Below, one piece after another: positions 49,295 through 64,000 of a stretch of DNA of 64,000 nt. Source of the stretch: Paucibacter sp. DJ2R-2. Lineage in GTDB: Bacteria; Pseudomonadota; Gammaproteobacteria; Burkholderiales; Burkholderiaceae_C. A program made the translations under genes and the position numbers. The stretch covers positions 186,001 to 250,000 of the forward strand of contig NZ_JAJIRT010000003.1 of NCBI RefSeq assembly GCF_025717675.1, written 5' to 3'. Position 1 is the first letter of the stretch. Each line of letters opens with the position of its first letter. Below the pieces are notes generated by a model. It was not told the DNA's origin. It saw nothing but the letters and a program-made list of their open reading frames with translations, and ran no database searches.

Positions 49295-49774
49295 ATGGTG
49301 AAGAACTGGCAGTCCGTGCTCTCGCGTGTCAGGGCCGCCTTGATGCGCCGTGGCCGCACGCGCCATGATGCGGACGATTTGGTGCAGGAGGCCTGGATCC
49401 GTCTGGCCTGCCAGGAGCAGCAGCAGGTCATCACCAGTCCTGAAGCCTTTTTGATGCGGATTGCGCTGAATCTGTCGATCGATGAATTTCGCAATGCCAG
49501 AAACCATGGCGAGCAGGTTTTGATCGAGGACCTGGTGCTGGTCGATACCAGACCTTCTGCCGAGTCCACACTTTTGGCTCGAGAACGGTTGACGCGACTG
49601 AGTGAGTGCTTGGCGCAACTGGATACCCGTACTCGCAGGATATTCTTGGCCCACCGTGTCGATGGCATGAGCTATCTTGAAATTGCAAGGGAGCAGCGTT
49701 TGAGTATCAGCTCGGTGGAGAAGTACGTCGCCAAAGCCACCTTGGTGATCACCCGGTCAATGGAGGGCTGGTAG
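49295..49774 (+). CDS. FecI-type ECF sigma factor
   Basis: A 159-residue iron-starvation/cell-surface-signalling sigma factor. Region 2 includes RHDADDLVQEAWIRLACQ and FLMRIALNLSIDEFRN; region 4 includes LDTRTRRIFLAHRVDGMSYL and EIAREQRLSISSVEKYVAKA. It lies two bases ahead of a fecR gene and upstream of a TonB-dependent receptor with an STN domain, the full three-part signalling set. The signal sensed is presumably the lasso peptide, or a metal bound to it. Confidence 0.93.
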   Translation: MVKNWQSVLSRVRAALMRRGRTRHDADDLVQEAWIRLACQEQQQVITSPEAFLMRIALNLSIDEFRNARNHGEQVLIEDLVLVDTRPSAESTLLARERLTRLSECLAQLDTRTRRIFLAHRVDGMSYLEIAREQRLSISSVEKYVAKATLVITRSMEGW

Positions 49775-49776
49775 CC

Positions 49777-50859
49777 ATGGATGCTTCAGCAGACCCCGAT
49801 TCAAAGGATACCTCGGGTCCCCACGTGACGCCTGAAATCGCGGCCGAGGCCTCGGTCTGGATTGCCCGGCTGCACGGGCCGGATCGTGGGCCAGAGATGG
49901 AACGCGAGTGTTTGGCGTGGCAGGCCCGTTCGGCCGCCCATCGATTGGCGTTTGAGCGATGTACCGACGTGTGGGAGTCGGTGCCGGGCGTCCGCTTGGC
50001 GGATGCTTTTGCGAGCGCCTCGCGTCGTGCATCCGACGCAGGCGGCGGCGGTGAAGCAGGTCCGGGCTCCCAGAGGTCCGCCAGCCGCATCTGGATCCTG
50101 GCACCGGCCTTCATCGTCCTTCTTGCCGGGGGGAGTGGCTATTGGCACTTTGTGCGTGGCGGCGAATCCTTTGGTACCCAAGTGGGCGAACAACAGCAAC
50201 TGATGTTGGTGGATGGCACCCGCATGACCCTGAACACCGATACCCAGGTTCGCGTGGACATGGGGACGTCAAAGCGAACCGTCGAGTTGCAGCGTGGTGA
50301 AGCCTTGTTTGAAGTCAGCAAGGACCCGGAGCGGCCCTTTGTGGTGAAGGCTGGTGGCAACGAAGTGGAGGCTATCGGCACGGTGTTCTCGGTGCGCATG
50401 CCGGGTGGCAGTGGTCAGGGTTCTCAGGAGTCGGCAGTGACGCTGATCGAGGGCCAGGTGGCAGTGCGACCGCCTGTGGCTAGAGACGTCCGTGGATCTG
50501 AGGCCGACAAGGCAGTGTTGATGCAGCCAGGGGAGCGCTTGCGTTGGGTTCCACAGGAACTGGGCGCCAGTCGACCCGTGCGACCGCAGCTGGATCGGCC
50601 GAAGTTGGCGACTGTGCTGGCCTGGCGACGCAATGAAGTGGATTTCGAGGATGCGTCCTTGATGGAGGCCACATCAGAGATGAATCGGTACAGCCGCACA
50701 CCGATTGTCTTGTTGGGGAACGGCACGCTCGGGACGCTTCGAGTCAGTGGTCTGTACCGGACGGGAGATAGTGCGGGCTTTGCCCATGCAGTGGCTGCCT
50801 TGCACGGCTTGCGGCTGCGTGAGCAGGGCGGACGTCTGGAGTTGTCGCAGTCTCAGTAG
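49777..50859 (+). CDS. FecR-type anti-sigma regulator
   Basis: A 360-residue inner-membrane regulator. It has an N-terminal DUF4880 domain that binds sigma (about 15-60: AAEASVWIARLHGPDRGPEM, then WQARSAAHRLAFERC), one membrane helix (about 106-125: IWILAPAFIVLLAGGSGYWH) and a periplasmic FecR domain (GTRMTLNTDTQVRVDMG ... RTVELQRGEALFEVSKDPER). A C-terminal DUF4974 domain touches the receptor STN domain. It is two bases from the sigma gene and 78 bases before the receptor gene. Confidence 0.93.
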   Translation: MDASADPDSKDTSGPHVTPEIAAEASVWIARLHGPDRGPEMERECLAWQARSAAHRLAFERCTDVWESVPGVRLADAFASASRRASDAGGGGEAGPGSQRSASRIWILAPAFIVLLAGGSGYWHFVRGGESFGTQVGEQQQLMLVDGTRMTLNTDTQVRVDMGTSKRTVELQRGEALFEVSKDPERPFVVKAGGNEVEAIGTVFSVRMPGGSGQGSQESAVTLIEGQVAVRPPVARDVRGSEADKAVLMQPGERLRWVPQELGASRPVRPQLDRPKLATVLAWRRNEVDFEDASLMEATSEMNRYSRTPIVLLGNGTLGTLRVSGLYRTGDSAGFAHAVAALHGLRLREQGGRLELSQSQ

Positions 50860-50937: not shown

Positions 50938-53900
50938 ATGTTAGGCAAAGTATTCAGAGGCAGTCGATGGGGCGGCAGCCATTTGTTGGACAGCGCCTTG
51001 CTTGCGCTGGCTTTGTGCTGTGGAGCGGCATGTGCCAGCGAAGCTGCTAGTGCTGCAAAGCATCGGATTGATCAGCCGGCGCAACCTTTGGGTGAGTCGC
51101 TGCGGGCGATCGCCCGACAGACCGGCGTCTCCATTGTTTTTGATCCTGGCAAGGTCAATGGCCGAACATCGCGCTCGGTATTCGGCCATTTGACGGCAGC
51201 AGAGGCTATTGCTCGTGCGCTGGAGGGGTCTGGCCTGACTCCCACTGTGATGAGTGACGGTTCGATCGTGGTTCGCCCCGCACCGACGCCGGGTACTTCA
51301 GGGCCGGCCAGTGGGCCGGGCGCTGCGACCGTTCCTACTCTGGAACTTGCGCCTCGCCCTTCGGGCATGGCCGTCGCTGTGGCTGATGCTTCAAGCAGCC
51401 GACCCATGATGGCCGTGACGGCCTCGCTCGTGAACTCCGATGCGGCCTCGACTGAAGAGGGCCATGGAACGGTGGCTTCACTCGGTCGGATTGAGGTCAC
51501 CGGATCTCGCCTCAAGCGCATTGAGGCGGACGGCCCCACGCCTGTCAATGTCTACACGCGCGGCGATATCGACCGCAGCGGTCAGCCCTCGTTGGAGCGC
51601 TTTCTCAGCACTTTGAACGAGGCCTCGGTGAGCCCCGGAGAAAGCAGCTTTGTCGCCACGACCGGTCAGGGATCCGTCCAGCTTCGGGGTTTGCCTTTAG
51701 GTTCAACCTTGGTGCTCATCAATGGTCGCCGTTTGCAGGCCGTGGGTTCCTCGTCGGCCAATTTCTTCAATCTCAACCTGATCCCCATGGCTGCGGTCGA
51801 TCGCATCGAAGTCGTTCCCGTAGGCTCATCTGCAGTCTATGGCGGAGATGCGCTGGCGGGTGTGGTCAACGTCATTCTCAAGAAATCCCTCGACGGCTTG
51901 GTGCTCGATGCACGCCTTGCCTCAGGGCAGGGCAGTGGGGATGGAAACATTTCCATGGGTGCTGGCACTCGCACGCAGTCCGGCTCCTACATCGTGCTTG
52001 GCGCCTACAACAAGGCCTCTCCGCTGACCATGGCCGAGCGGGGTTTCTTTGTGGATGCCGATTACCGGCGCTTCGGCGGTGTCGATGCGCGCACCCGTTC
52101 GTGCACCCCGGGCACGGTGAGCAGCAGCACAGGTGCGAATCTTCCAGGGCTGAATTCATCGTTCGCAGCCATCCCGACGATGGCGCCAGGCCAAGCCTTG
52201 ACCCAGGCCAGCTTCACCGCAAGCGCCGGGCAGGCCAATCTGTGCAATTCCATGGCCAATGGCAAGGGCAGGGCGCTGGTGCACGGCACGGAGAGCCTGT
52301 CTTTTCATGCCGCCGGGGACTACCGGCTTAGCGATGACTGGTCGGTGTTCGGTGAGTTGACCCTTGCAAAGGACAAGCTGTCGGCGGAAGAAGGCGGTCT
52401 GCTTTTGAGCAATGTTCTGGTTCCTGCCACCAATCCGCACAATCCCTTCAGTGTTCCTGTACGTGTGACCGCCCGCCTAGGTCCTGAGAACGGATTCGAG
52501 CGGTTGGCTCGTGACACCGATTTCACACGGGCTTTGGTGGGGATGCGCGGTGAGCTGCCGGCTGGATGGGAGCTGGAGGCTTCGTTTTCAAGCACGCGCG
52601 ACGATGGTCAGCGACGCCTGTCCAACACCACGCCCAATGTGGCAGCCCGCACCGCGGCCTTGGCCGCGTCCAGCGCCGCTGCTGCACTCAATCCCTTCAC
52701 GGCGGGCAAGGCGGCCAGCGATGAGGTCCTCCAGGCGATTTGGTCGGACTCGATTCGCGACAACCATGGCCGCAAGGACCAGGTCAGTGCTTTTCTGCGT
52801 GGCTCGGTGTTGGAGTTGCCCGCCGGGAGCGTGGATCTGATCGCGGGCGCGGAGGCGGCTCGCGATCGGTACCGGACGGTCACGCCGGGGAGCTTTGACA
52901 TCGCCGCGAGACGCTCTAACAGTGCGGCCTTTGGCGAAATGCATGTACCTCTCTGGCGATCCAGTCCCAGCGAGGGTCCTGCCCGCGAGATGGCGGCGCT
53001 CACCATCGCTGCGCGGCGTGACCACTACAGCGACTTCGGCAGCGCAAGCACATACCAAGCTGGCTTGGAGTTCCGTCCGAGTAAGACAACGCTCCTGAGG
53101 GCTTCAACCGCCACGTCCTTCAAGCCGCCTACTTTGCTCCAGACCAAGGTAGATGATCTGCGCTACAGCACGGAAGCCTTTGGACTGGTGGATCCGGCAC
53201 GAGCGAACGCACCCATTGTGGGCGGTGAGGTGTTGCGCACCACCAACCGGGACTTGAATCCCGAAACCGGCCGTGCCTTGGCATTTGGCGCTGTTTGGGA
53301 GCCTGAGTCCGCGCAAGGGACCCGTCTCGGTGTGACGGCTTGGCGCGTGAAGATCGATGGGCTGATCTCGCTTTTGTGGCCGCAGGTGGTCTTGGCCAAT
53401 GAGGCTCGCTTTCCTGGTTTTGTGACGCGTGCGCCAGCGGCTCCTGGTCAGGTAGGTGCTGTTACACAGGTGCTCTATGCCGAGGTCAATTACGGCGGTG
53501 TTGACACCTCGGGGCTGGACTTGGAAGCGGCCCATGCCTGGAAGACCGAGGGGAGCAAGTGGACCTTGTCCGCCAGTGCCACGCGTACTCGCGACTACGA
53601 GGTGACGCTGGCACCAGGAGCTCCGGCCGAGAACCGTCTGGGACGACGTGCCATCGACTTCTGGTCACCGGCGTGGAAGGGGCGTCTGTTTGCAGGCATG
53701 GATCGTGGCGCATGGAACATGGGACTGACCAGCCGCTACTTGGGGCGCTACCGAGATTCTTTGCCCAGCGAGCGCCGGCTCGGAGGCTATTGGCTTCACG
53801 ACATGGCGGCGACTTTCAAACTGGCACCGCTGGGTCTGAGCTTGGCTTCCGCCAAGGACGCCTCGCTCTCTTTGTCGGTGGCCAATATTGCCAATCGCAT

Positions 53901-53994
53901 GCCGGAGTTTGTCGAATCCTCGCCCTACTACGACTTCACCCAGGGTGATTGGCGCGGCCGCTACCTGAGCCTGCGTTTGTCCATGAGTTGGTAA
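50938..53994 (+). CDS. TonB-dependent receptor with STN signalling domain (1018 aa)
   Basis: Outer-membrane transducer. A signal peptide (about 1-34) is followed by an STN domain (about 45-115: QPLGESLRAIARQTGVSIVF, then GHLTAAEAIARALEGSGLTP) that contacts FecR and a long Ala/Pro linker. The plug (about 190-315) contains SVQLRGLPLGSTLVLINGRR and GSSAVYGGDALAGVVNVILK, and the beta-barrel ends GRYLSLRLSMSW with terminal Trp. In other lasso systems the receptor beside the isopeptidase takes the peptide back into the cell; that role is inferred here. It is followed by the isopeptidase gene. Confidence 0.92.
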   Translation: MLGKVFRGSRWGGSHLLDSALLALALCCGAACASEAASAAKHRIDQPAQPLGESLRAIARQTGVSIVFDPGKVNGRTSRSVFGHLTAAEAIARALEGSGLTPTVMSDGSIVVRPAPTPGTSGPASGPGAATVPTLELAPRPSGMAVAVADASSSRPMMAVTASLVNSDAASTEEGHGTVASLGRIEVTGSRLKRIEADGPTPVNVYTRGDIDRSGQPSLERFLSTLNEASVSPGESSFVATTGQGSVQLRGLPLGSTLVLINGRRLQAVGSSSANFFNLNLIPMAAVDRIEVVPVGSSAVYGGDALAGVVNVILKKSLDGLVLDARLASGQGSGDGNISMGAGTRTQSGSYIVLGAYNKASPLTMAERGFFVDADYRRFGGVDARTRSCTPGTVSSSTGANLPGLNSSFAAIPTMAPGQALTQASFTASAGQANLCNSMANGKGRALVHGTESLSFHAAGDYRLSDDWSVFGELTLAKDKLSAEEGGLLLSNVLVPATNPHNPFSVPVRVTARLGPENGFERLARDTDFTRALVGMRGELPAGWELEASFSSTRDDGQRRLSNTTPNVAARTAALAASSAAAALNPFTAGKAASDEVLQAIWSDSIRDNHGRKDQVSAFLRGSVLELPAGSVDLIAGAEAARDRYRTVTPGSFDIAARRSNSAAFGEMHVPLWRSSPSEGPAREMAALTIAARRDHYSDFGSASTYQAGLEFRPSKTTLLRASTATSFKPPTLLQTKVDDLRYSTEAFGLVDPARANAPIVGGEVLRTTNRDLNPETGRALAFGAVWEPESAQGTRLGVTAWRVKIDGLISLLWPQVVLANEARFPGFVTRAPAAPGQVGAVTQVLYAEVNYGGVDTSGLDLEAAHAWKTEGSKWTLSASATRTRDYEVTLAPGAPAENRLGRRAIDFWSPAWKGRLFAGMDRGAWNMGLTSRYLGRYRDSLPSERRLGGYWLHDMAATFKLAPLGLSLASAKDASLSLSVANIANRMPEFVESSPYYDFTQGDWRGRYLSLRLSMSW

Positions 53995-54294
53995 GCGCCG
54001 ACCAGGGGTCTGCCGAGTATGGGGGGACATGGGCCCTTGCGGCGATCCGGTCCGCGCCGTGTCCTCGCTGTCCTTTCGTTGCCTCAGCGGTTTCCGCACT
54101 TTTCCGCAAGCCCCTGAGCTTTCTTCCTGCGATGACCTAGGGCAGCGCACTTCGTGGCGTCGCCTGGCGCATCTCAGCGCCCGTGCTCAGTGGCTCCCTT
54201 GTTGACTGGGCTCGGCCTGGCCTCGTAGGCCGGACGTTGCTTGGCTCATTTCTATTCCTGTTTTTGAACCCGACCGATGAGTCCGGGGGATTCC

Positions 54295-56748
54295 ATGTTG
54301 CAAACACTTTTCTCCCATTTGATGCGCGAGGGCTGGACTGGCTTGGATGACGGGCTTTGGTTCTGCCTGTTGATCTTGTGTCTTGTGTTGCCACTTCCAG
54401 AGGCCCATGCGGCCATGGGGCCGACGGTGCGAGAGCTGATCGAGTTCACGCGCATCATTCAGCCGATTCAGCATGACGCTGAAACGCTGCAGAGCCAGGT
54501 GTCGCCGGATGGCTCACAAGCCTTTGTGGTCACCCGTACGGCTAAGGTGGCCAACGACGTGAATCGGTTCGAGATCTTGCTGCTGGACCTGAACGCCGGG
54601 CGCCTGGCCGCCTCGGCACCTGGTGCTGCTGTTCGCGTGTTCTCGGTGGAGTCGCGCAATGATGACGACGATGCGAACCCTTCGTTGCGCGAGGTCCGCT
54701 GGCATGACCATCGAAGTCTTGTGTTTCGGGCCCGCCTGCACGACGAGCCGTTCCAGGTCTATCAACTCGATGTGTTGACCCAGCGCTTGACGCAGTTGAC
54801 CTACGCGCCCCTGGGGGTCCTGTCCTTTGACGTGTCCGGTGATTCGAGGCGCGTGGTCTATGTGGCCCCGGTGCCCAACCCTGCGATGCCCCCTGGAGCG
54901 CGCAGCGTGGTGGTGGGAACTCACTCATTCTGGAGTGTCCATTTTGGGCAGGACAGCTTTCGGACCCAGCAGCGCCGCTATCAGTTCTTTGTGGCGGAAT
55001 CGGGCTCCCGCATGGCCGCACGGCCAGTCGGTGTGCCCTTCCCGGAGAGCGCCGGTGGCTTCCCATCGGTCAGCATGTCACCGGACGGACGGTGGTTGGT
55101 CTTGCCCAAGTACGAGCCGGGCCGGCAGCTCGCGTGGGCCGCGGACTACCCTCAGATTGCTGAGGCGACTGCGAAGTACGGACCATCGGTGACACTGGAT
55201 CCGCTGGCCTACTACTCGCGCCCCATGAGCTATGTCTCGCGACGTTTGGTGCTCTACCGCCTCTCCGACGGCCAGGAGCAGCCCATCCTCGACGCGCCAG
55301 ATGATGTCTTGCCGGGCAACCAGACGCGCACGGATCGGCTCTGGCAGGATGGTGGCGTTTCCTTGGTGATCGCTGGTACCTATCTGCCGCTGCAGGACGC
55401 TGTGAATGCGCCAATGCCTGCCAAGTCAGCTTCGGCCAGTCCGTCGTCTGGCACGCCTCACTCCAAGCCAAGCCCCGCGTCTCACATCATTGAGTTCTGG
55501 CCGGATACAGGGCGCTGGCAGATCATTGCCGCACTCGGGCAGCGTTTGAAGACGGCCTTTCCGATCGCCGGCAAGGCTGGCGCATTCATGGCGATTGATG
55601 GTGGGCAGCACCGCCGTTTTGAGCGTGGCGCGGATGGTGTTTGGCAGGAGTTAGAAGCCGCTGTAGGCCCGGACCCAAGTGCGCCAGGTTCAGGCCCGGC
55701 CTGGCGCCTGAAAGTCGCTCAATCCCTGAACCAACCGCCTGACATCGTCGCCCAGGGCCCTGATGGCGCCGAGGTGCGCCTGACTCAGCTGAATCCGCAA
55801 TATCGTGCTTCCCAGTGGGGCACGATGCGTGAATACGATTGGACGGACGTGGCGGGGCGCCAATGGCGTGGGGGCTTGATGGTGCCTGCGGACTTCAAGG
55901 CGGGTATGCGCTATCCCCTGGTGATTCAGCCCTATGGCTTCTCGCCCAACCGCTTCTATCGCGATGGCTCCAACGACTACGACGGATTCACCAGCGGCTT
56001 TGCCGGTCGAGCTTTTCTGCGTGAAGGCATTCTGGTGTTGGCCTTCCCCTGGCGAGCCAGCAGCGGTGCGCCGACTGACGAACCTGGAGCGCGCCAAGCT
56101 TTCCACGATGGGGTGAGGGCGGCCATCGATGCGCTGGTGAAGGACGGTTCGGTGGATCGGGAGCGCATCGGCATCTTGGGATGGAGTGCCACGGGCGAGC
56201 GGGTGCTGAACTTGCTGACCTTCACAGACACACCGATCCGAGCAGCCACCTTGTTGGATGGTGATGCCAACACCCTGTATTCCATGACGATCACCTATGC
56301 GGTGATGGATGGCATCCAGGCTCGCAAGGAACGAACCAACGGGGGCGGCCCTTTTGGAGAGTCACGCACGCGTTGGATTCGCAACGACCCCTCGCTGTAC
56401 ACCGACTGCATTCGAGCGGCGCTGCGCATCGAGACCTATGGGCCTGAGGTTCATAACAACTGGGACATCTATGCACTTTTGCGCAGGCAATATCGGCCCG
56501 TTGAGCTGCTCATGATTCCAGGTGGTGCACATGCACTGGCGCGGCCCAGCGAACGCATGATTTCGCTGCAAGGCAATGTCGACTGGTATCGCTTCTGGTT
56601 GAAGGGCGAGCAGCGCAACGAGCTGATCGTGCCTGGGGAAACGACTGCCAGCTTGAAGGAACAGTATCAGCGCTGGCAGCAGATGGGAACACTGAAGCAA
56701 GCCATGGACAGGCAGCCCGCATGTGTGCGTACGCTGGATCAAAACTGA
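54295..56748 (+). CDS. Lasso peptide isopeptidase, S9 prolyl-oligopeptidase type (817 aa)
   Basis: Serine hydrolase expected to cut the isopeptide bond of the imported lasso peptide. A signal/anchor segment (about 20-40: LWFCLLILCLVLPLPEAHA) is followed by a seven-bladed propeller (repeated SPDG-type turns such as QVSPDGSQAFVVTRTAKVAN and SMSPDGRWLVLPKYEPG) and an alpha/beta-hydrolase domain. The nucleophile is Ser631 in GILGWSATGER and the His is H746 in MIPGGAHAL; the acidic member is not obvious (Glu718 or Asp724). ATG 54295 has GGGGGA upstream; ATG 54277 is in frame. It converges with the ABC exporter gene. Confidence 0.85.
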   Translation: MLQTLFSHLMREGWTGLDDGLWFCLLILCLVLPLPEAHAAMGPTVRELIEFTRIIQPIQHDAETLQSQVSPDGSQAFVVTRTAKVANDVNRFEILLLDLNAGRLAASAPGAAVRVFSVESRNDDDDANPSLREVRWHDHRSLVFRARLHDEPFQVYQLDVLTQRLTQLTYAPLGVLSFDVSGDSRRVVYVAPVPNPAMPPGARSVVVGTHSFWSVHFGQDSFRTQQRRYQFFVAESGSRMAARPVGVPFPESAGGFPSVSMSPDGRWLVLPKYEPGRQLAWAADYPQIAEATAKYGPSVTLDPLAYYSRPMSYVSRRLVLYRLSDGQEQPILDAPDDVLPGNQTRTDRLWQDGGVSLVIAGTYLPLQDAVNAPMPAKSASASPSSGTPHSKPSPASHIIEFWPDTGRWQIIAALGQRLKTAFPIAGKAGAFMAIDGGQHRRFERGADGVWQELEAAVGPDPSAPGSGPAWRLKVAQSLNQPPDIVAQGPDGAEVRLTQLNPQYRASQWGTMREYDWTDVAGRQWRGGLMVPADFKAGMRYPLVIQPYGFSPNRFYRDGSNDYDGFTSGFAGRAFLREGILVLAFPWRASSGAPTDEPGARQAFHDGVRAAIDALVKDGSVDRERIGILGWSATGERVLNLLTFTDTPIRAATLLDGDANTLYSMTITYAVMDGIQARKERTNGGGPFGESRTRWIRNDPSLYTDCIRAALRIETYGPEVHNNWDIYALLRRQYRPVELLMIPGGAHALARPSERMISLQGNVDWYRFWLKGEQRNELIVPGETTASLKEQYQRWQQMGTLKQAMDRQPACVRTLDQN

Positions 56749-56817: not shown

Positions 56818-58743
56818 TCATTGTCCGGCCCCGGTCTGCTGGGCCCACCACATCTTGGCGTAGATGCCTCCGCCTGCAAGCAGGTCCGCATGCTTACCTT
56901 GCTCAACGATTCGGCCGTCAGCCATGACGGCGATCAGGTCGAGGTCTTGAAGCACCGAGAGTCGGTGGGCGATGGTGATGGAGGTTCGACCCGCGGTGAC
57001 TCTGCGTTGTTCAATCAGGATCTGGCGCTCGGTGTTGGCATCGAGCATCGAGGTTGCTTCATCGAAGACAAAGATCTGCGGGCTCTTCAGGATGGCGCGG
57101 GCCATGGCGACTCGCTGGCGCTCACCGCCCGAGAGCCTTTGGCCACGCTCGCCAACCCGAGTCTCGAAGGCCTGTGGCATGGACGTGATGAGGCCATGCA
57201 TTCCTGCGAGGCATGCGGCTTCCTTGACGTCCTGGATCGTCGCACCTTCCCTGCCGATGGCGATGTTGTCAGCGATGGTGGCATCGAACAGAACGACATC
57301 TTGTGGCACCACGGCGATCATGCTTCGCAGCGTGCTCAGCGGCAGGGTGTGGATGGGAACATCGTCGAAGAAGACCTGGCCAGATTGGGGTATGTAGAGC
57401 CCCAGCAAGACTCGCACCAGTGAGGACTTGCCGCCTCCGCTTTCCCCGACGATGCCGATCGAGCTTCCTGCGGGGATGTCCAGATTCAATCCATCGAGCA
57501 CAAGGCGCTGCTCATCGAAAGCCATGTGAATGTCGGAGAAGCGGATGTGTGGCGCTTTGACAATGGGCTGGGATGTCCCCATGCTGCCGGCCCTGGGTCT
57601 GGGATCGCTTGCTTTGATCTCGGACTGCGTCCTCCGCTGGTCGGCTGATTCAGCCTCTCGTTCTTGCTGAAAGACTTCCATGATCGGCCGGATGAAAGCC
57701 AGGCTCTGCAGCGAGTCACGTAGGGCTGAGCTCATCATTTCTAGCAGGCGAATGAGTTGGACCATGTAGAGGTTTGCCAAGAAAAACCCGCCAATGCTCA
57801 GCTCACCCGAAATCAGTGCACGGGAGGCGAGTAGCAGCGATGCGGCAATCGCCAAGCCGAAGGCTGCTGTGGTCAGCAGGGCCTGGCTGAGTCGTCGCCC
57901 CTGCAGCCTCGACCAGGCGCGCTCAAGCTCCTGTGTGGCTCGGTTGAATTTTCCTTGCGCCCACGTCTCGGCACCAAAGCACTTGAGGGGTTCACAGTTG
58001 CTCAGGCTGTCGCTCATGAGTCCGTGCGCATGGAAGTTGGCGCGAGAGACGAACCCTGCCGCAACTTTGATCCGGGAGGACCAGATCAGGACCAGGCTCA
58101 GGTAGGCGAATGCAGTGGTGGCGAAGATGCCATTCAATGCGGGCTGGCCCAGGGTCAAGAGCACGGCGCTGGCAGTGAGAGCCTCCGCCAAGATCGGGAC
58201 TGCGCTGCCGGCCAGATTGAACAGAATGACTTGGTAGGCGGAGATGGCCTGCTGCAGGATCTGGACCTTGGCATCGCCTCGCGCATGCAAATGCGCGGAT
58301 AGGGGCAATGCCAAGACGTGCCGGAAGAAGCGCTGTCGTAGGTGCGCGTACAAGCCTTGCTCCGCGGAGCTGAGCATCCAGGGGCGCAGATCGGTGCACA
58401 GACGCGCCCCACACAGACACAGCAAGTAGGCCAGGCTGAACCCGAGCAATTGGTTGGCTGCAGGAGCCTGATCCGCCGGGACACTCTGGGCTGTGGCCCC
58501 ATCGATCATGCCTTTGAGCGCAAGCGGTGCCACGCCAGCTAGCAGACCGCCAGCGACGGCCAGAAGGTTGGCCGCCAACAAGTGGAAAATTTGCGACCGA
58601 CTGCAGCCCGTGAACAGGAGCTGGAGCGCTAGACAAAGCTCAGTCAGCGCATTCTTGAATGGCTGCATGCCGTCCTGGCGCGGCGCCTCTGTCCTTGCTC
58701 CACTGCCACCGTCGACTCCGTCGCTGGTCCTCCTGTTCCTCAT
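56818..58743 (-). CDS. Lasso peptide ABC exporter (D protein, 641 aa)
   Basis: Homodimeric exporter half-transporter giving export and immunity. The membrane domain (about 50-350, six helices) precedes a nucleotide-binding domain with Walker A GESGGGKSS (434-442), signature LSGGERQRVAMARA (from 537) and Walker B IFVFDEATSMLD (from 557). The last residues are plain. It follows the cyclase gene by 42 bases on the same strand, giving the gene order A-B-C-D of proteobacterial lasso clusters. Confidence 0.92.
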   Translation of the reverse strand: MRNRRTSDGVDGGSGARTEAPRQDGMQPFKNALTELCLALQLLFTGCSRSQIFHLLAANLLAVAGGLLAGVAPLALKGMIDGATAQSVPADQAPAANQLLGFSLAYLLCLCGARLCTDLRPWMLSSAEQGLYAHLRQRFFRHVLALPLSAHLHARGDAKVQILQQAISAYQVILFNLAGSAVPILAEALTASAVLLTLGQPALNGIFATTAFAYLSLVLIWSSRIKVAAGFVSRANFHAHGLMSDSLSNCEPLKCFGAETWAQGKFNRATQELERAWSRLQGRRLSQALLTTAAFGLAIAASLLLASRALISGELSIGGFFLANLYMVQLIRLLEMMSSALRDSLQSLAFIRPIMEVFQQEREAESADQRRTQSEIKASDPRPRAGSMGTSQPIVKAPHIRFSDIHMAFDEQRLVLDGLNLDIPAGSSIGIVGESGGGKSSLVRVLLGLYIPQSGQVFFDDVPIHTLPLSTLRSMIAVVPQDVVLFDATIADNIAIGREGATIQDVKEAACLAGMHGLITSMPQAFETRVGERGQRLSGGERQRVAMARAILKSPQIFVFDEATSMLDANTERQILIEQRRVTAGRTSITIAHRLSVLQDLDLIAVMADGRIVEQGKHADLLAGGGIYAKMWWAQQTGAGQ

Positions 58744-58785: not shown

Positions 58786-60588
58786 CTAGGGCTGCCAGCG
58801 GCTGAGCCAGGCCTCCACCGCAACCAAGGCATGGATCTGTGAGCTTGACGCGGATTGGGTGCTCGGACGGTCGAACAGTTGGGCCTGCAGACGACTCCGA
58901 TCGAGTAAGCCTCGGCGGCAGAGCTCTCCGTCGAGCAAGAGCTCACGCACCGTGTTGATATTGGCGTTCAGCACGGCTTTGACGTGTTCTTCCATTCCCC
59001 CCTTGGAACGACGTCTGATGATGGAGGCGGGGAGGTCGTTCTCAAACGCCCGTCTTGCCAATGCACGGCCCTGTCCTCCTCGTGTCAGCAGATGGCTGGG
59101 CAGGCGTAGGCATAGTTCCACCAAGGGCTGAGAGAGCAGTGGGTTGACGAGTTCCGGGGCTGCTTCTTGCTCGAAAGGGTCATAGTAGCCAATGGGCTGC
59201 ATGAGGGCCGTGGCTTGAGTGAACTTGCCAATCGGCAGACGCTGGGCCTCATCTTGGGCCGGATGGCTGAAGAGCTCCATGTCCACGCCTTGGGCCGAGG
59301 ACTCTGTGCTGAACGCCGTCGCCGGCCCCGATGTGGCTCTCAGGGCGGGGTCGGGTTTCAAGCGTTCCCTCAGCGCAAACCGTGCGGCCCGCCAGACCGA
59401 TGTGCGCCCGAGGCGTGCCGCGTCCAAGGCTGCGCTTGCAAAGCCTGAGTCCAGGCCTCGGGTGGCCAGGTAGTCGGCCGCCGGCCACCACGACGAAATT
59501 TCGAAGAACAGCGCATCGCCACCTGCGCCGGTGAAGAGGGCCGGCGCTGCGTGAGCCGCGGCCAGGTGCGCATCGGTGCGCGAGTTCATCCAGCCGAGGT
59601 AGTGCACTGGATCCGGCATGCGTGCCGTCTGCAGCACGCGCTCCAGCTGGAATCCAGGTTCACGCTCTCGTTCCAGCAGATCTCGGCCGGCACGCGATGC
59701 TGCCAGGCGCGCGTAGTGGCGTTCGTCACTGTTGGAGCCAGGCGAGTGGTAGTTGAGACAGATCACATCGGCGGGCGAGCTTCCCGCGGCCAGACAGCTG
59801 AGCATGATGGAGGAGTCGACACCGCCGGACAATCGCAGCAACAAGGTGTCATAGCTGCCTGCCCAGGCCTGGACACAGCTTCGCACGGTGTGTCTCAGCA
59901 AGCTCGCCGCGTCCTCGAATGGCAGATACAAGGGTGAACGAGCGAAATGGACCGCGTCCCAAAGCAGGGTCGGCCGACCCTGACTCAGGTCGAGCATCTC
60001 GCCTGGCAGGACCTGTTGCACACCATCCAGGGCGGTCCCCTTTCCAATCTGGGGGCCATGCAGCAGCTGCGCTCTGAGGGCATCCCAGTTCACGCGGGGC
60101 AGCTCTTGGGCGTCCAGCACTTGAAGCGCATCCTCCAGCCATGAGAAAACAACCGTCACTCCGTGCCGCTGCAGATGGAAGCAGGGCAAGGTGCCGCTTG
60201 GGTCGCGCAGCACGCAGTGGGCCCCACCCTTGTCGGTGAAGAAAGCGATGTAGCGTCCCCAGAACTGCTGCTGCAGCGCTCGTCCCCCGCTGTTCAGGAT
60301 TTCAGTGCTGGATTTCTGGTCGAAGTTGCCTTGCTTTGCTCGCGGATGGAATGCTTGTTCTAGGCTCTGCCGCTGAAACAGTTTGCCCAGGATGACGCCG
60401 CGGTGGTCGTGCAGCAGGAGGGAATCGTTGATTCCCGTTTTTTCCCCTCGCGTGTAGACCTGCATGCCGGGGCGGCTCAGCACCTGCCGCCAGACTTGGA
60501 TTTGTCGAGTCTGGGATCCCAGCTCATTGGCGGCAGCACTCGGGTCGGCCAGGTTGGAGTCCCAGACAAAAGCAAGATAGCGAAACAT
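58786..60588 (-). CDS. Lasso cyclase (C protein), asparagine synthetase-like (600 aa)
   Basis: ATP-dependent enzyme that adenylates the ring Asp/Glu side chain and closes the macrolactam with the core Gly1. The N-terminal glutaminase-like half begins MFRYLAFVW and lacks the Cys2 nucleophile of true AsnB, as in other lasso cyclases. The synthetase half has the PP-loop SGGVDSS (254-260) and later blocks (HYLGWMNSRTDAHLAAAHAA, then LFTGAGGDALFF). It starts 18 bases after the B gene stop. The missing amidotransferase Cys plus neighbours make the lasso assignment firm. Confidence 0.92.
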   Translation of the reverse strand: MFRYLAFVWDSNLADPSAAANELGSQTRQIQVWRQVLSRPGMQVYTRGEKTGINDSLLLHDHRGVILGKLFQRQSLEQAFHPRAKQGNFDQKSSTEILNSGGRALQQQFWGRYIAFFTDKGGAHCVLRDPSGTLPCFHLQRHGVTVVFSWLEDALQVLDAQELPRVNWDALRAQLLHGPQIGKGTALDGVQQVLPGEMLDLSQGRPTLLWDAVHFARSPLYLPFEDAASLLRHTVRSCVQAWAGSYDTLLLRLSGGVDSSIMLSCLAAGSSPADVICLNYHSPGSNSDERHYARLAASRAGRDLLEREREPGFQLERVLQTARMPDPVHYLGWMNSRTDAHLAAAHAAPALFTGAGGDALFFEISSWWPAADYLATRGLDSGFASAALDAARLGRTSVWRAARFALRERLKPDPALRATSGPATAFSTESSAQGVDMELFSHPAQDEAQRLPIGKFTQATALMQPIGYYDPFEQEAAPELVNPLLSQPLVELCLRLPSHLLTRGGQGRALARRAFENDLPASIIRRRSKGGMEEHVKAVLNANINTVRELLLDGELCRRGLLDRSRLQAQLFDRPSTQSASSSQIHALVAVEAWLSRWQP

Positions 60589-60606
60589 GGCGTCAGGTGC
60601 TCCGGC

Positions 60607-61338
60607 CTACACGACGAGGATGGGGCAAAACTGGCGAACGCGCTCATGCTGGTCGTTCAAGACCATGTCGCCACGCTGAACCCAGGAATGGGCGGCAAAG
60701 GGATTTGACTTGACACCAATCACCCATTGAGCTGAAAGGCCTTCAGTGGCTAGGAAGCCCAGGAGGGACAGGGAGTCATGAAGGCACTGCTGCTGCGTGC
60801 TGAAGAAGAAGGGGCGAAGCGCGGCATATGCGGCACATGCACTCTGGATGGCCTCTATCGACTCAGCGCCGGGGCCCCGTAGTCTGTGCTTGCGCGAAAT
60901 GCGCGCGCAGACGATGGCCCACAAGGACCGATGGCGAAGACACCAGCTCGCACTTGCTGAACTTGTTAAGAAAGCAAAGGAACGCCGGGCGCTGATCCGC
61001 GCAGTCGTCCCGTCATGATCCAGTTCCTGCAACGCAGTTGGCAGTGCTGTTTCAGGGGCTTGTTCCGGGGCCGCTTCAGAGGCAGGCCGTATCAGGAGCT
61101 CCAAGGCAACGAGTTGTTGCACCGTCTTGTGATTGGGTAGCGGGGTGTCCGTGTTGTGTGGCTGGGCGTCAAAGGCTGGCCAGCCCTTGATCAACTTGCT
61201 CAGCGGCAGAGCTTCCGGCTTGCTGATGGCCAAATAGCGGTTTCGGCGCAAGTCGAGCAAGACCACGCAGCTTTCGCAGGCGCAAGCCCTTACATGGTGG
61301 GCCAGTTCCAGTTGCGGCTTCGAGTGCGCATCTTGCAT
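60607..61338 (-). CDS. Lasso peptide B protein: fused RRE (B1) and leader peptidase (B2)
   Basis: A 243-residue protein. Residues 1-85 form a PqqD-like leader-recognition domain (VRACACESCVVLLDLRRNRY, LAISKPEALPLSKLI). Residues about 125-243 form the transglutaminase-like cysteine protease (B2) that cuts the leader. Its triad reads C185 (QQQCLHDSLSLLGFL), H217 (FAAHSWVQRGDMV) and D229 (VLND). The fused form is normal for proteobacteria. It lies 295 bases after the precursor, separated by a strong hairpin, and 18 bases before the cyclase. Confidence 0.9.
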   Translation of the reverse strand: MQDAHSKPQLELAHHVRACACESCVVLLDLRRNRYLAISKPEALPLSKLIKGWPAFDAQPHNTDTPLPNHKTVQQLVALELLIRPASEAAPEQAPETALPTALQELDHDGTTARISARRSFAFLTSSASASWCLRHRSLWAIVCARISRKHRLRGPGAESIEAIQSACAAYAALRPFFFSTQQQCLHDSLSLLGFLATEGLSAQWVIGVKSNPFAAHSWVQRGDMVLNDQHERVRQFCPILVV

Positions 61339-61549
61339 GGCGTTCTCCGAGTCCAGGTCCTTGGTTTGGCGTGAAAAGCATCCGGAGGTCGGCTCTTTGG
61401 TGGGTCTTGGCGGTCGCCTCCGTAGTGGACGATCGCCGTTTACTTAGACTTGGCGCGGCTGCGTTACGTCACGACACGCCGCCTCAGGGTTTTTGCATGG
61501 CAAGCTGAGTTTGGGATCTCACGCTGTGGGAGTGGATGCTTTTGGGGTC

Positions 61550-61584
61550 AGTCCTGGGCGCCGTTGTTTACGGAGCCCAGGACT
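61550..61584 (-). promoter_or_regulatory. Hairpin between lasso precursor and B gene
   Basis: AGTCCTGGGC and GCCCAGGACT form a perfect 10-bp stem, extended by three CCG/CGG pairs after a G-A mismatch, around a short loop. On the minus strand it begins 49 bases after the precursor stop and has no T-run. It probably acts as partial terminator or mRNA-stabilising end, giving more precursor than enzyme, as intergenic hairpins do in other lasso operons. Confidence 0.6.
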
Positions 61585-61633
61585 TTCTCTCAAGCTAGGC
61601 AGCGCGCTCCGTTGTGGCGCGTGCCAAGCTCAT

Positions 61634-61768
61634 TCAGGGCTCGCGGCGACCCGGGATCACCGGGTTTTCCTCGGCATATTCCAGGGCTGGGAAGCCCAGG
61701 GTCAGTTCCTTGGCATCACCCAGTTCGATGACCGGGGTTTGTTGCTCCAGTTGCGATTTCTCGTCCAT
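61634..61768 (-). CDS. Lasso peptide precursor (44 aa), rubrivinodin-like core
   Basis: Small gene with AAGGAG seven bases before ATG 61768. The 24-residue leader has the RRE-binding pattern TPVIELGDAKELTL, with Thr23 at the penultimate position as lasso peptidases require. The 20-residue core is GFPALEYAEENPVIPGRREP. Gly1 and Glu9 would form a nine-residue ring, leaving an 11-residue tail ENPVIPGRREP. From memory the Rubrivivax gelatinosus lasso peptide rubrivinodin is GAPSLINSEDNPAFPQRV, sharing G.P.L...E and the NP..P.R tail, so this is a close relative with a different ring face and extra C-terminal residues. It lies at the head of the B-C-D operon. Confidence 0.9.
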   Translation of the reverse strand: MDEKSQLEQQTPVIELGDAKELTLGFPALEYAEENPVIPGRREP

Positions 61769-61801
61769 GACAGACTCCTTCAAGTTGAGGTTGAGACCCA
61801 G

Positions 61802-61828
61802 TGCCTGAGGCCTTCTTGACCTCAGGCA
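61802..61828. promoter_or_regulatory. Hairpin in the lasso operon 5' leader
   Basis: TGCCTGAGG pairs with CCTCAGGCA (9 bp, 9-base loop), 34 bases upstream of the precursor start codon. It would lie in the 5' untranslated region if transcription starts farther upstream, or serve as an operator palindrome. No match to a known element is claimed. Confidence 0.45.
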
Positions 61829-62089
61829 ACTTGAAGTTAGCTCCGGCTGTCGGCTGTGTCGATGTCAAAGGGACGATGCCGGTCTGTGTTCGGCGGCCGT
61901 GATCGAGGCGAGCCCATGGCTACAGCTACTTGGAATTTGCATCTTGGGCGGTCGAGCAGCGATGCTCTACTTGTTCGGCAGTCAGGGTGATCAGTTGGGC
62001 GCAGGCCATTGCTTGCGGTATTCCGAACGTTTTTCACGTTACTTGAGGGGTTACATTGAGGGAAATGGCCTTGAAATCGTCATTGTTCA

Positions 62090-63160
62090 ATGGGGCCTGC
62101 CAATTCCCTCAGTCCTACTCCCGATCCAACGTCTCAAGTGTGGAGCTTGTGTTGGCAGGCGGCTGTTGGCCGTGACTTCCTGTCTAGCCCGTCGCTCGCT
62201 CGACGGATCCGAGCCAGGCTGCTTGATGCGCATCAGCGGTCTGGGCGGGTCCTGATCGACTACCTGATCCTGCCTTCCGAGATCCATGCCGTGTCTCAGA
62301 TCTCTGCCGATGATTCGGTGGGCAGTGTGGCCCGGGCGGTTGGCAACGTGGTGTCGCGATGGGTGCGTGAGGCGCAACCCGTGCGCAGCCCGGTTCTGGC
62401 TGGCCCCTACCGGGCCCAGCGCATCGATTCGATCTCGAAGTTGCGAGACGAGTTGCGCATGCTGGCATGGCGCTCGGTCGCGGTGGGGGCTTGCAAGACA
62501 CCGACCCACCACCCTTACGGGGGACTTCGGATCGCCTTGGGGCTGACGCCAGCCAAAGGTTTCGATGCCCGTCCCATGTTGCGGCACTTCGGCGATTCGG
62601 TTCCTGTATCTCGCGATTCTCTGCGCCGCTGGATCTCGAGGAGACCCACACAACAGGAGCGATGCGCTTGGGAGCTCACTCGTGGCTTGGTCCTGGCGAC
62701 AGGCACTGTCGGACCTAGGCCCGCGATGGCCCGGCTGGTGGATAGTGCTGCGGCCAGCCTTGTGGCTGCGGGCGGGGGGTACGGCATTGATGCCGCGCTC
62801 GAGGTCCTTGCGCTTTGGGTGAGCGTGCGTCTGAATGCCAACAATCCGCCTGATCTGTATGCGAGCTCCAGTCATTTGGCCGCAAGGGGCCGCGCCTTGG
62901 TGGCCTGCCTGGCTCGGGCTCATCGACTCTGTTCGGCAGCCTCCGTGGCGAGATATTTCCACCGCGCCAAAGCTACGCTGTGCGAGCAGATGGCGGCATG
63001 CCGTCGACATCCCCTCGATCGGTTGACGCTTGCGATCCCCCTGCGTCGCATCCTGGACGAGGCGGCCTTGTTGCGAGTATCCGGGGTGGGGTGCCTGCCC
63101 TTTTGCGGCAAGCGTGTGCACCACCCTGCGAAGCCTGACCCGACCGCTCATGACGCCTGA
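62090..63160 (+). CDS. RAYT-like (REP-associated tyrosine transposase domain) protein with lost active site
   Basis: A 356-residue protein. Residues about 53-160 follow the Y1/RAYT transposase fold (VLIDYLILPSEIHAVSQISA ... VLAGPYRAQRIDSISKLRDE ... TPTHHPYGGLRIALG). The metal-binding HUH pair, normally PNHVH, reads PSEIH here, and the catalytic Tyr region reads LAWRSVAVG, so nuclease activity is unlikely. The C-terminal part has a DnaA-like helix-turn-helix (SVARYFHRAKATLCEQM) found in some RAYT proteins. It may be a domesticated DNA-binding protein. Its end overlaps a convergent AlpA-type gene by 13 bases. The family call is moderate. Confidence 0.6.
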   Translation: MGPANSLSPTPDPTSQVWSLCWQAAVGRDFLSSPSLARRIRARLLDAHQRSGRVLIDYLILPSEIHAVSQISADDSVGSVARAVGNVVSRWVREAQPVRSPVLAGPYRAQRIDSISKLRDELRMLAWRSVAVGACKTPTHHPYGGLRIALGLTPAKGFDARPMLRHFGDSVPVSRDSLRRWISRRPTQQERCAWELTRGLVLATGTVGPRPAMARLVDSAAASLVAAGGGYGIDAALEVLALWVSVRLNANNPPDLYASSSHLAARGRALVACLARAHRLCSAASVARYFHRAKATLCEQMAACRRHPLDRLTLAIPLRRILDEAALLRVSGVGCLPFCGKRVHHPAKPDPTAHDA

Positions 63161-63528
63161 GCGCTCCGGCGCTTGATCGTCAAACGATGGCCCGTAGCGC
63201 GCTTGTCTTTGGCATCCGTTGCGGCGACTTTCATTGGACTGCCGGTCACAGCTCCGGGTGGGGCTTGATTCCGCGTGGATGCAAGGTGGTCTGCATGCCG
63301 GGCCTGCGACACAGCAGGCCTGGTAAGCGTCCATTGCTCAACCTCGGTTTGCCGCCATGCAACGGCACGCTTGCTGAGTTGAACTTGCCCCGGGAACTGA
63401 TGCTCGGCGATCAAGCTATAGATCGTGGATCTGCACAAGCCGGTCATCTGCATGACGGTGGGCAAACGAACCAGTTTCGGCTGTGCCGAAATGATCTCGG
63501 CTTGGGTGCTGAGCAATGTGGGCTGCAT
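63148..63528 (-). CDS. AlpA-family helix-turn-helix regulator
   Basis: A 126-residue protein with an AlpA/excisionase-type winged helix at about 25-75 (KLVRLPTVMQMTGLCRSTIY, then SLIAEHQFPGQVQLSKRAVA, WRQTEVEQWTLTRP). Such proteins activate or guide excision of genomic islands and satellite phages and usually lie beside integrase genes. ATG 63528 (MQPTLLSTQ) is preferred; an upstream frame adds 9 residues. The C-terminal tail is basic and low-complexity. No integrase is seen inside the window. Confidence 0.8.
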   Translation of the reverse strand: MQPTLLSTQAEIISAQPKLVRLPTVMQMTGLCRSTIYSLIAEHQFPGQVQLSKRAVAWRQTEVEQWTLTRPAVSQARHADHLASTRNQAPPGAVTGSPMKVAATDAKDKRATGHRLTIKRRSAQAS

Positions 63529-64000
63529 GGCATACCTCCTTGGGTGGTGTTCCATGGAATCTAGTGGCCTGCGCCGGCCTGACCTGCGGTGACTTTCCGG
63601 AAAAAATGAGCCCCTTTCAGCTTCGGTCTCGTGCCCTTTAGCTCACTTTGTGGTGTTTGTCAGGGCCAGGCGATATCCGGCCCCAATGCATGAGGCGGTT
63701 CCAGTAAAGGCGCGACCTACCCATGCCCAGGGATCGCAGGCCCGCTGCCTTCGCGCTGCGCGCTAACGAGCCCGCTTAGCGAACAGCCTGCGGCCCCGTC
63801 CGCCACGCTTCGCTTCTCGTCCATGGCCTTGGGCAGATCGCCACCCTATCCATTCGCCACGCCCGAAGCCGGCCGCGCCAAATGCCAAGGTGCTCGATGC
63901 GGCTCGAAGTCCGCGCCAGTCGCTGCGCTTGTTGGCACGTCCTTCGCAGGGGCGCCGCATCTCGAAACGCCGGTCGACTTCGCCAAACTACGCCGCCCGC
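63529..64000. other. Terminal stretch with no recognised gene
   Basis: The last 470 bases show no convincing coding sequence. A minus-strand frame (63763-63960) is Arg/Gly-rich and looks like a shadow. The AT-rich block after 63590 (GACTTTCCGGAAAAAATGAG) may hold the promoter of the AlpA-type gene. Confidence 0.4.

Follow-up and report, generated by a model that had tools for sequence, protein, structure and literature searches.

A rubrinodin-type lasso peptide cluster with an exporter and an isopeptidase-like gene in Paucibacter sp. DJ2R-2 and its relatives in the Burkholderiales

The DNA analyzed here (the window) is a stretch of 64,000 nucleotides from Paucibacter sp. DJ2R-2 (assembly GCF_025717675.1, contig NZ_JAJIRT010000003.1, positions 186,001 to 250,000 of the forward strand). 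Close to its right-hand end lies a short precursor gene (A), which is followed on the minus strand by genes for B, C and D proteins. A set of plus-strand genes, encoding an ECF sigma factor, FecR, a TonB receptor and an S9 protein (IsoP), converges on D and stops 69 bases from its end. The features are as follows, in window coordinates.

49295-49774, plus strand: ECF sigma factor, FecI-like (PF08281, PF04542; TIGR02937 above its cut-off)
49777-50859, plus strand: FecR-like anti-sigma regulator (PF04773, PF16220)
50938-53994, plus strand: TonB-dependent receptor with an STN signalling domain (PF00593, PF07715, PF07660)
54277-56748, plus strand: lasso isopeptidase-like S9 protein (IsoP), 823 residues (NF033523; AtxE2 by sequence, SpI-IsoP fold)
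56818-58743, minus strand: D protein, ABC exporter (PF00005, PF00664)
58786-60588, minus strand: C protein, asparagine-synthase-like macrolactam cyclase with an SGGVDS motif
60607-61338, minus strand: B protein, putative N-terminal leader-binding (RRE-like) domain and transglutaminase-like peptidase
61550-61584, minus strand: stem-loop between A and B, 15-nt arms, 93% complementary
61634-61768, minus strand: precursor gene A, 44 codons (ATG 61768-61766, stop 61636-61634)
61697-61768, 61637-61696 and 61634-61636, minus strand: leader, core and stop of gene A, from the sequence
61775-61780, minus strand: AAGGAG ribosome binding site of gene A, six bases before the ATG, with similar sites ahead of the relatives' genes
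61800-61831, minus strand: stem-loop upstream of gene A, 32 bases before the ATG, with similar hairpins ahead of the relatives' genes (model match 25.1 bits)

An earlier note on this DNA had placed B, C and D after the precursor on the same strand, and the coordinates together with the lasso B2, asparagine synthase and ABC exporter models confirm this. The convergent isopeptidase, TonB, FecR and sigma genes were left unmentioned there.

The product of gene A consists of the leader MDEKSQLEQQTPVIELGDAKELTL and the 20-residue core GFPALEYAEENPVIPGRREP, which has acidic residues at E6, E9 and E10. The traits of a lasso precursor are present: T23 at leader position -2, G25 as core Gly1 and Glu at core position 9. 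The coordinates, strand, length of 44 codons and ribosome site previously given for the gene are correct on the sequence, and the leader motif, the penultimate Thr, Gly1 and Glu9 are as had been claimed. The computed monoisotopic mass of the core minus water is 2222.112 Da ([M+2H]2+ = 1112.063); the corresponding C-terminally trimmed masses are 2125.059, 1996.017 and 1839.916. Pfam family PF19399 (DUF5974) matches residues 1-42 with 74.1 bits (gathering cut-off 38.5, E 8e-21). The name DUF5974 stands for "unknown function" and assigns none, and it was not found in the literature searched. The existence of a Pfam family makes it doubtful that the gene is too short for routine gene calls, as had been proposed. 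Three NCBIfam lasso precursor models all scored the product below cut-off (17.7, 15.9 and 15.9 bits); membership of the albusnodin (17.7 bits, cut-off 30) and benenodin (15.9 bits, cut-off 33) families was rejected. A search of the genome with the precursor alignment at E ≤ 0.01 returned one match only, and a single B2 gene was found at E ≤ 0.1; thus no other precursor that could fit B was found. The earlier note had named a better-fitting precursor elsewhere as grounds for refuting its reading, and the genome yielded none beyond gene A.

Among 399 genomes from the same family, 19 have a PF19399 match at E ≤ 0.01, which exceeds the cut-off in 10; the 14 control genomes gave none. Around Rubrivivax benzoatilyticus, 3 of 60 genomes gave matches, and a search of plasmids returned 21 records, every one below 60% identity. 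Twenty regions of relatives were fetched (loci are numbered with an L below). The window's genome apart, there were 22 PF19399 places, and 18 of these are represented; two regions came from another search. A lasso B gene follows the precursor in 18 of these 20. In L042 the contig ends directly after the precursor, and L053, which came from a weak match (E 0.0133), has no cluster. Within the fetched DNA, D adjoins C in 13 of the 18 loci with precursor and B (in L046 it adjoins B), and IsoP is present on the opposite strand in 15. Since the precursor stands before a lasso B gene in so many of the loci, DUF5974 is, judging by gene order, very likely a lasso precursor family.

Conservation within the precursors is consistent with this assignment. 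When 18 of 19 precursors were aligned (the near-duplicate L044 was omitted), L16, G17, D18, A19, K20, T23, G25 and the Glu aligned with core Glu9 proved invariant; the aligned Glu occupies core position 9 in 16 rows and position 8 in two. Further precursors were sought with the pattern LGD[A/V][K/N]..T.G or a near variant, which imposes the Thr and Gly by construction and does not demand an acid. Counted gap-free over 34 distinct precursors, window included, core position 9 is acidic in all 34 (31 Glu, 3 Asp), and positions 2-8 are acidic in 0 to 7. A nine-residue ring is not proved by this count, because position 10 (20/34) and position 8 (6/34) are also acidic. In six cores an acid at 9 comes directly after Glu at 8, and rings of eight residues may therefore occur in the family. 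The family models, synteny, the acid at core 9 and the conserved B and C motif residues support the two central proposals of the earlier note, namely that gene A encodes a lasso precursor whose ring may have nine residues and that there is a family of such peptides in the Burkholderiales. Its view that two extra C-terminal core residues are distinctive does not hold. Core lengths across the 34 precursors are 20 (14), 19 (9), 18 (9) and 17 (2), and the window's 20-residue core is therefore ordinary.

The nearest relative, L054 (Burkholderiales bacterium PBB3), encodes a core identical to that of the window, and the two C proteins are 77% identical. Between the two A genes, the core shows three synonymous changes and no others, and the leader shows six that are synonymous and two that alter an amino acid. 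From these small numbers, the codon changes point to purifying selection on the core, including its C-terminal residues. The same comparison bears on the proposal that gene A is a chance reading frame and that the real substrate of B is encoded elsewhere. The gene is only 44 codons long and its product falls short of the three NCBIfam precursor models, as such a frame might. A chance frame would however have to account for the DUF5974 match, for a precursor before B in 18 relatives' loci, for a core without amino acid change between two genomes and for a genome without any other precursor match, and we regard it as highly improbable. Two loci, L074 and L080, hold two different precursor genes per cluster; the additional gene in each is preceded by a different, strong hairpin.

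The B protein matches the lasso B2 model NF033537 with 62.1 bits (cut-off 33) and PF13471 with 61.6 bits. Residues Cys185, His217 and Asp229, which we take to be catalytic, are kept in 17/17 aligned rows (17 of 19 rows were used; the near-duplicate L044 and the L041 B, a fragment or split frame, were set aside). The predicted structure of B has a pLDDT of 83.0. Its top match among solved folds is TbiB1 with bound leader (Foldseek probability 0.99, E 0.039), and no solved structure matched the model at E ≤ 0.001. On the basis of this weak but top-ranked match, the N-terminal part of the modelled protein is probably a leader-binding RRE domain. The C protein matches PF00733 (Asn_synthase) with 89.1 bits and falls below the cut-offs of the lasso-specific NCBIfam models (101.5 versus 300 bits and 42.1 versus 525 bits). 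Its ATP motif SGGxDS (S254 G255 G256 D258 S259) is invariant in 16/16 rows, from an alignment of 16 of 18 without the near-duplicate L044 and the L034 C (a fragment or split frame).

The convergent genes would extend the system beyond biosynthesis and export. IsoP matches the Atxe2 isopeptidase model NF033523 with 138.6 bits (E 3e-40); as this is under the cut-off of 400, we call the protein isopeptidase-like. AtxE2 provides the nearest solved sequences in the PDB (E 2e-9). The predicted structure (pLDDT 75.6, poor at residues 637-639) is closest in fold to SpI-IsoP (E 4.5e-31) and then AtxE2 (9.7e-30), with other S9 peptidases close behind (1.6e-28). In all, 1146 chains match at E ≤ 0.001, many of them S9 peptidases, and the fold by itself does not therefore say isopeptidase. 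The protein is a distant relative of AtxE2 and SpI-IsoP. Ser637 and His752, the latter presumably the catalytic His, are invariant in 14/14 rows (14 of 16 rows were aligned, without the near-duplicate L044 and the L052 IsoP, a fragment or split frame). The catalytic acid of AtxE2 is Glu610. Glu724 of IsoP, the candidate acid that aligns with it, is kept in 7/14 rows, and Asp730 and Asp704 in 14/14. The nucleophile role of the AtxE2 Ser is taken from the title of structure 5txe (S527A). The N terminus of IsoP has a hydrophobic stretch ending in PEAHAA that resembles a signal peptide by eye. If IsoP is periplasmic, it is located where the TonB receptor would deliver the peptide.

The frequency of this gene combination was assessed by scanning named genomes with the C alignment. 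This gave 107 relatives, the best 80 of which became loci; hosts are Paucibacter, Pelomonas, Roseateles, Rubrivivax, Schlegelella, Piscinibacter, Aquabacterium and others. A quick C tree was built from 40 rows, comprising 39 of the 80 loci and the window; the Burkholderiales loci L076 (near-duplicate) and L087 (contig-cut) were omitted. A Burkholderiales clade takes up 34 of the 40 rows, and 33 of these, the window and 32 relatives, were typed for D (L078 was excluded). D is present in 27 of the 33, window included, and absent next to C in six (L055, L057, L060, L071, L083 and L131), a distribution that needs four changes on the C tree. IsoP was seen in 17 of the 26 D-plus relatives; six are contig-limited, and three have room for the gene but none was seen (L062, L081, L082). 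Relatives in the clade that can be judged thus number 26 (17 + 3 + 6), and 17 of them have both D and IsoP. The complete loop is therefore not required: three D-plus relatives show no IsoP, and six relatives have no D beside C.

The clusters without D next to C retain other parts of the system. In five of them C and an IsoP frame are 7 to 98 bases apart, and in L071 a TonB frame lies 72 bases from C, with no IsoP seen. No unlinked D orthologue was seen in the genomes of L055, L057, L060 (Paucibacter sp. KBW04) and L131, where the best D matches score 272-276 bits; the second-best D match in the window's own genome is similar, at 284 bits. The genomes of L083 and L071 hold a second cluster, with D at 335 bits and with a D-like piece at a contig end (215 bits), respectively. 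From the scattered pattern of these loci on the tree, we infer that D was lost rather than gained in the clade. Two loci are unusual in other respects. L046 (9538-12244) has precursor, B, D, IsoP, TonB, FecR and sigma genes and no C was found between B and D; a further cluster in that genome does contain C (L048), so that the predicted cyclase may act on the L046 peptide in trans. L065 is on a contig filed as Nostoc sp. CHAB 5836, and its C gene adjoins that of Paucibacter sp. PLA-PC-4 (L064) on the tree, with end branches of 0.035 and 0.022. The contig is probably a contaminant.

The hairpin upstream of gene A recurs in the clade. We picked hairpins by eye in 30 of 34 upstream regions, leaving out L041 and L075 as near-duplicates and also the second precursors of L074 and L080, which have different hairpins. 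Of 210 cells in the resulting set, 89.0% pair, and sliding the partner by one to three columns lowers pairing to 27-46%. Cells changed on both sides number 17, compared with 6.1 in shuffles (0/500 as high). Two further counts were not above chance in these hairpins: pairs with change on both sides (3; 278/500 shuffles as high) and further pair types (10; 157/500 as high). A covariance model was run over 31 loci (601 kb), the same loci from which it had been built (L142, L143, L145 and L146 are the same stretches as L069, L067, L068 and L087). The hairpin upstream of A accounts for 24 of its top 25 matches, the exception being upstream of a sigma gene in L054. The model misses L060 and ranks L073 and L146 among the background; in four outgroup loci it found no comparable match (best 18.3 bits, L090). 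The distance from hairpin end to precursor ATG is 24 to 34 bases in 22 of 23 loci measured and 49 in L073. The hairpin is often preceded by a CTA(A/C)CTT-like box.

No Rfam family matched at E ≤ 1 in window 60500-63200, alignment of the whole 5' region yielded only 5 pairs (-2.9 kcal/mol), and folding z-scores of the 34 upstream regions averaged -1.08, with 16/34 below -1. In the window itself, a perfect 10-nt inverted repeat (61778-61787 with 61827-61836) has one arm abutting the ribosome site of gene A; folding of this outer repeat, as read from the DNA, could therefore mask the site. Downstream of A, the 295 bases that separate it from B contain the strong A-B hairpin. Strong folding after A was noted by eye at other loci too, and the intergenic hairpin is a possible attenuator or stabilizer.

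Genes for an AlpA-type regulator, SSB and DUF932 lie just beyond the precursor (window 63148-63555 and L147 1288-2747), which suggests an integrated mobile element beside the cluster. A 356-codon frame adjoining the precursor (window 62090-63160, plus strand) has no Pfam match at E ≤ 0.01. A protein with a Tle1-like phospholipase domain (PF09994) is encoded near the cluster, at L147 5071-6681.

Several characterized systems offer comparisons. The rubrivinodin core has E9, an NP motif and a P.R tail. A possible likeness of the window core to it in these three features had been put forward previously. Rubrivinodin comes from Rubrivivax gelatinosus, a host in the Burkholderiales like that of the window, and the plasmid name rugeA_RBS_BC implies the same A, B, C order. 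Rubrinodin, reportedly described by Xiu et al. in 2022 in Biochemistry (61:595), is the better documented parallel, and by gene content the window cluster is of the rubrinodin type. A 2022 review states that all isopeptidase clusters are without a transporter except that of rubrinodin, which has both (PMC9266682), and adds that the rubrinodin cluster also has a TonB receptor and a FecI/FecR-like pair. By this description, the two clusters have the same gene content, namely an exporter, an isopeptidase or isopeptidase-like protein, a TonB receptor and a FecI/FecR-like pair. A second source notes that the rubrinodin cluster harbours toxin-antitoxin genes (PMC10926693). Clusters of the astexin/sphingopyxin type (AtxE2, SpI-IsoP) share isopeptidase homology and fold, the TonB receptor and sigma/anti-sigma genes with the window; they differ in being described without an ABC transporter (PMC9266682), whereas the window has D. 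Finally, the members of Pfam DUF5974 are placed here as lasso precursors.

Our main reading, to which we give a probability of about 0.88, is that the cluster is a rubrinodin-type lasso system whose peptide is made, exported, sensed, re-imported and linearized. The evidence consists of the set of genes present, their homology and synteny, the conserved motif residues and the acid at core 9, and all of it comes from sequence and models. B would bind the leader through its N-terminal domain and cut after Leu24; C would activate Glu9 and couple it to Gly1, closing a ring of nine residues through which the tail passes; and D would export the peptide. These steps follow established lasso biology and the conserved residues, and the threading, cut site and ring closure of the window peptide are predicted on that footing. 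The later steps come from gene content. The TonB receptor with its STN domain would bind extracellular peptide and signal through FecR to the ECF sigma factor, and would import the peptide into the periplasm, where the S9 isopeptidase would open the isopeptide bond. The receptor ligand would accordingly be the window peptide, on which IsoP would also act.

Clusters of the microcin J25/capistruin type are not known to carry isopeptidase, TonB receptor or sigma/anti-sigma genes. Such clusters have the A-B-C-D order on one strand that is seen in the window (as described for the microcin J25 genes). A classical antimicrobial lasso peptide of this kind, with D serving export and self-immunity and with the TonB receptor and isopeptidase only protecting the producer by destroying returning peptide, would be in keeping with the ABC exporter. 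Reviews associate antibacterial activity or self-immunity with clusters that have an exporter, and a general absence of activity with those that have an isopeptidase (PMC9266682). A mere waste route would however not need the STN domain of the receptor or the adjoining FecR and sigma genes, and all six of the 32 typed relatives that have no D beside C retain the TonB gene; IsoP was seen in five of these. We consider this account unlikely, and an antimicrobial-only role was rejected as the leading reading.

A siderophore-like or nutrient carrier has a slightly better claim, although we hold it to be doubtful. Here the exported lasso peptide would bind cargo and return through the TonB receptor, and IsoP would open it for release. 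The FecI/FecR/TonB layout resembles that of ferric citrate uptake, the core is acidic at E6, E9 and E10, and the idea has been voiced for isopeptidase clusters in the review (PMC9266682) and in a research paper. Against this, there is no known cargo, and Glu at core 6 occurs in just 4 of 34 cores. Returning to the system as we read it, its most likely biological role, to judge from the genes present, is less that of a classical antibiotic than that of a carrier or signal which the producer itself senses.

We also offer, tentatively, a broader scheme for the clade, which may well prove wrong. The clade would share a closed self-sensing lasso circuit (make, export, sense, retrieve, unlock), with the conserved RNA hairpin some 30 bases before the precursor gene as an extra control; D, IsoP and once C would have been lost piecewise, and rubrinodin would represent the ancestral layout of the Burkholderiales DUF5974 family.

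The purpose of isopeptidase-type lasso peptides was still called enigmatic in the 2022 review (PMC9266682). One cluster of the kind described here, that of rubrinodin, had been reported before, and the main point of the finding is how common such clusters are. The analysis assigns a likely function to DUF5974, a Pfam family that had none, and adds a lasso peptide with a predicted, testable mass. It also sets the one exporter plus isopeptidase cluster reported in that review, rubrinodin, in a broad clade in which D-plus and D-minus relatives can be compared.
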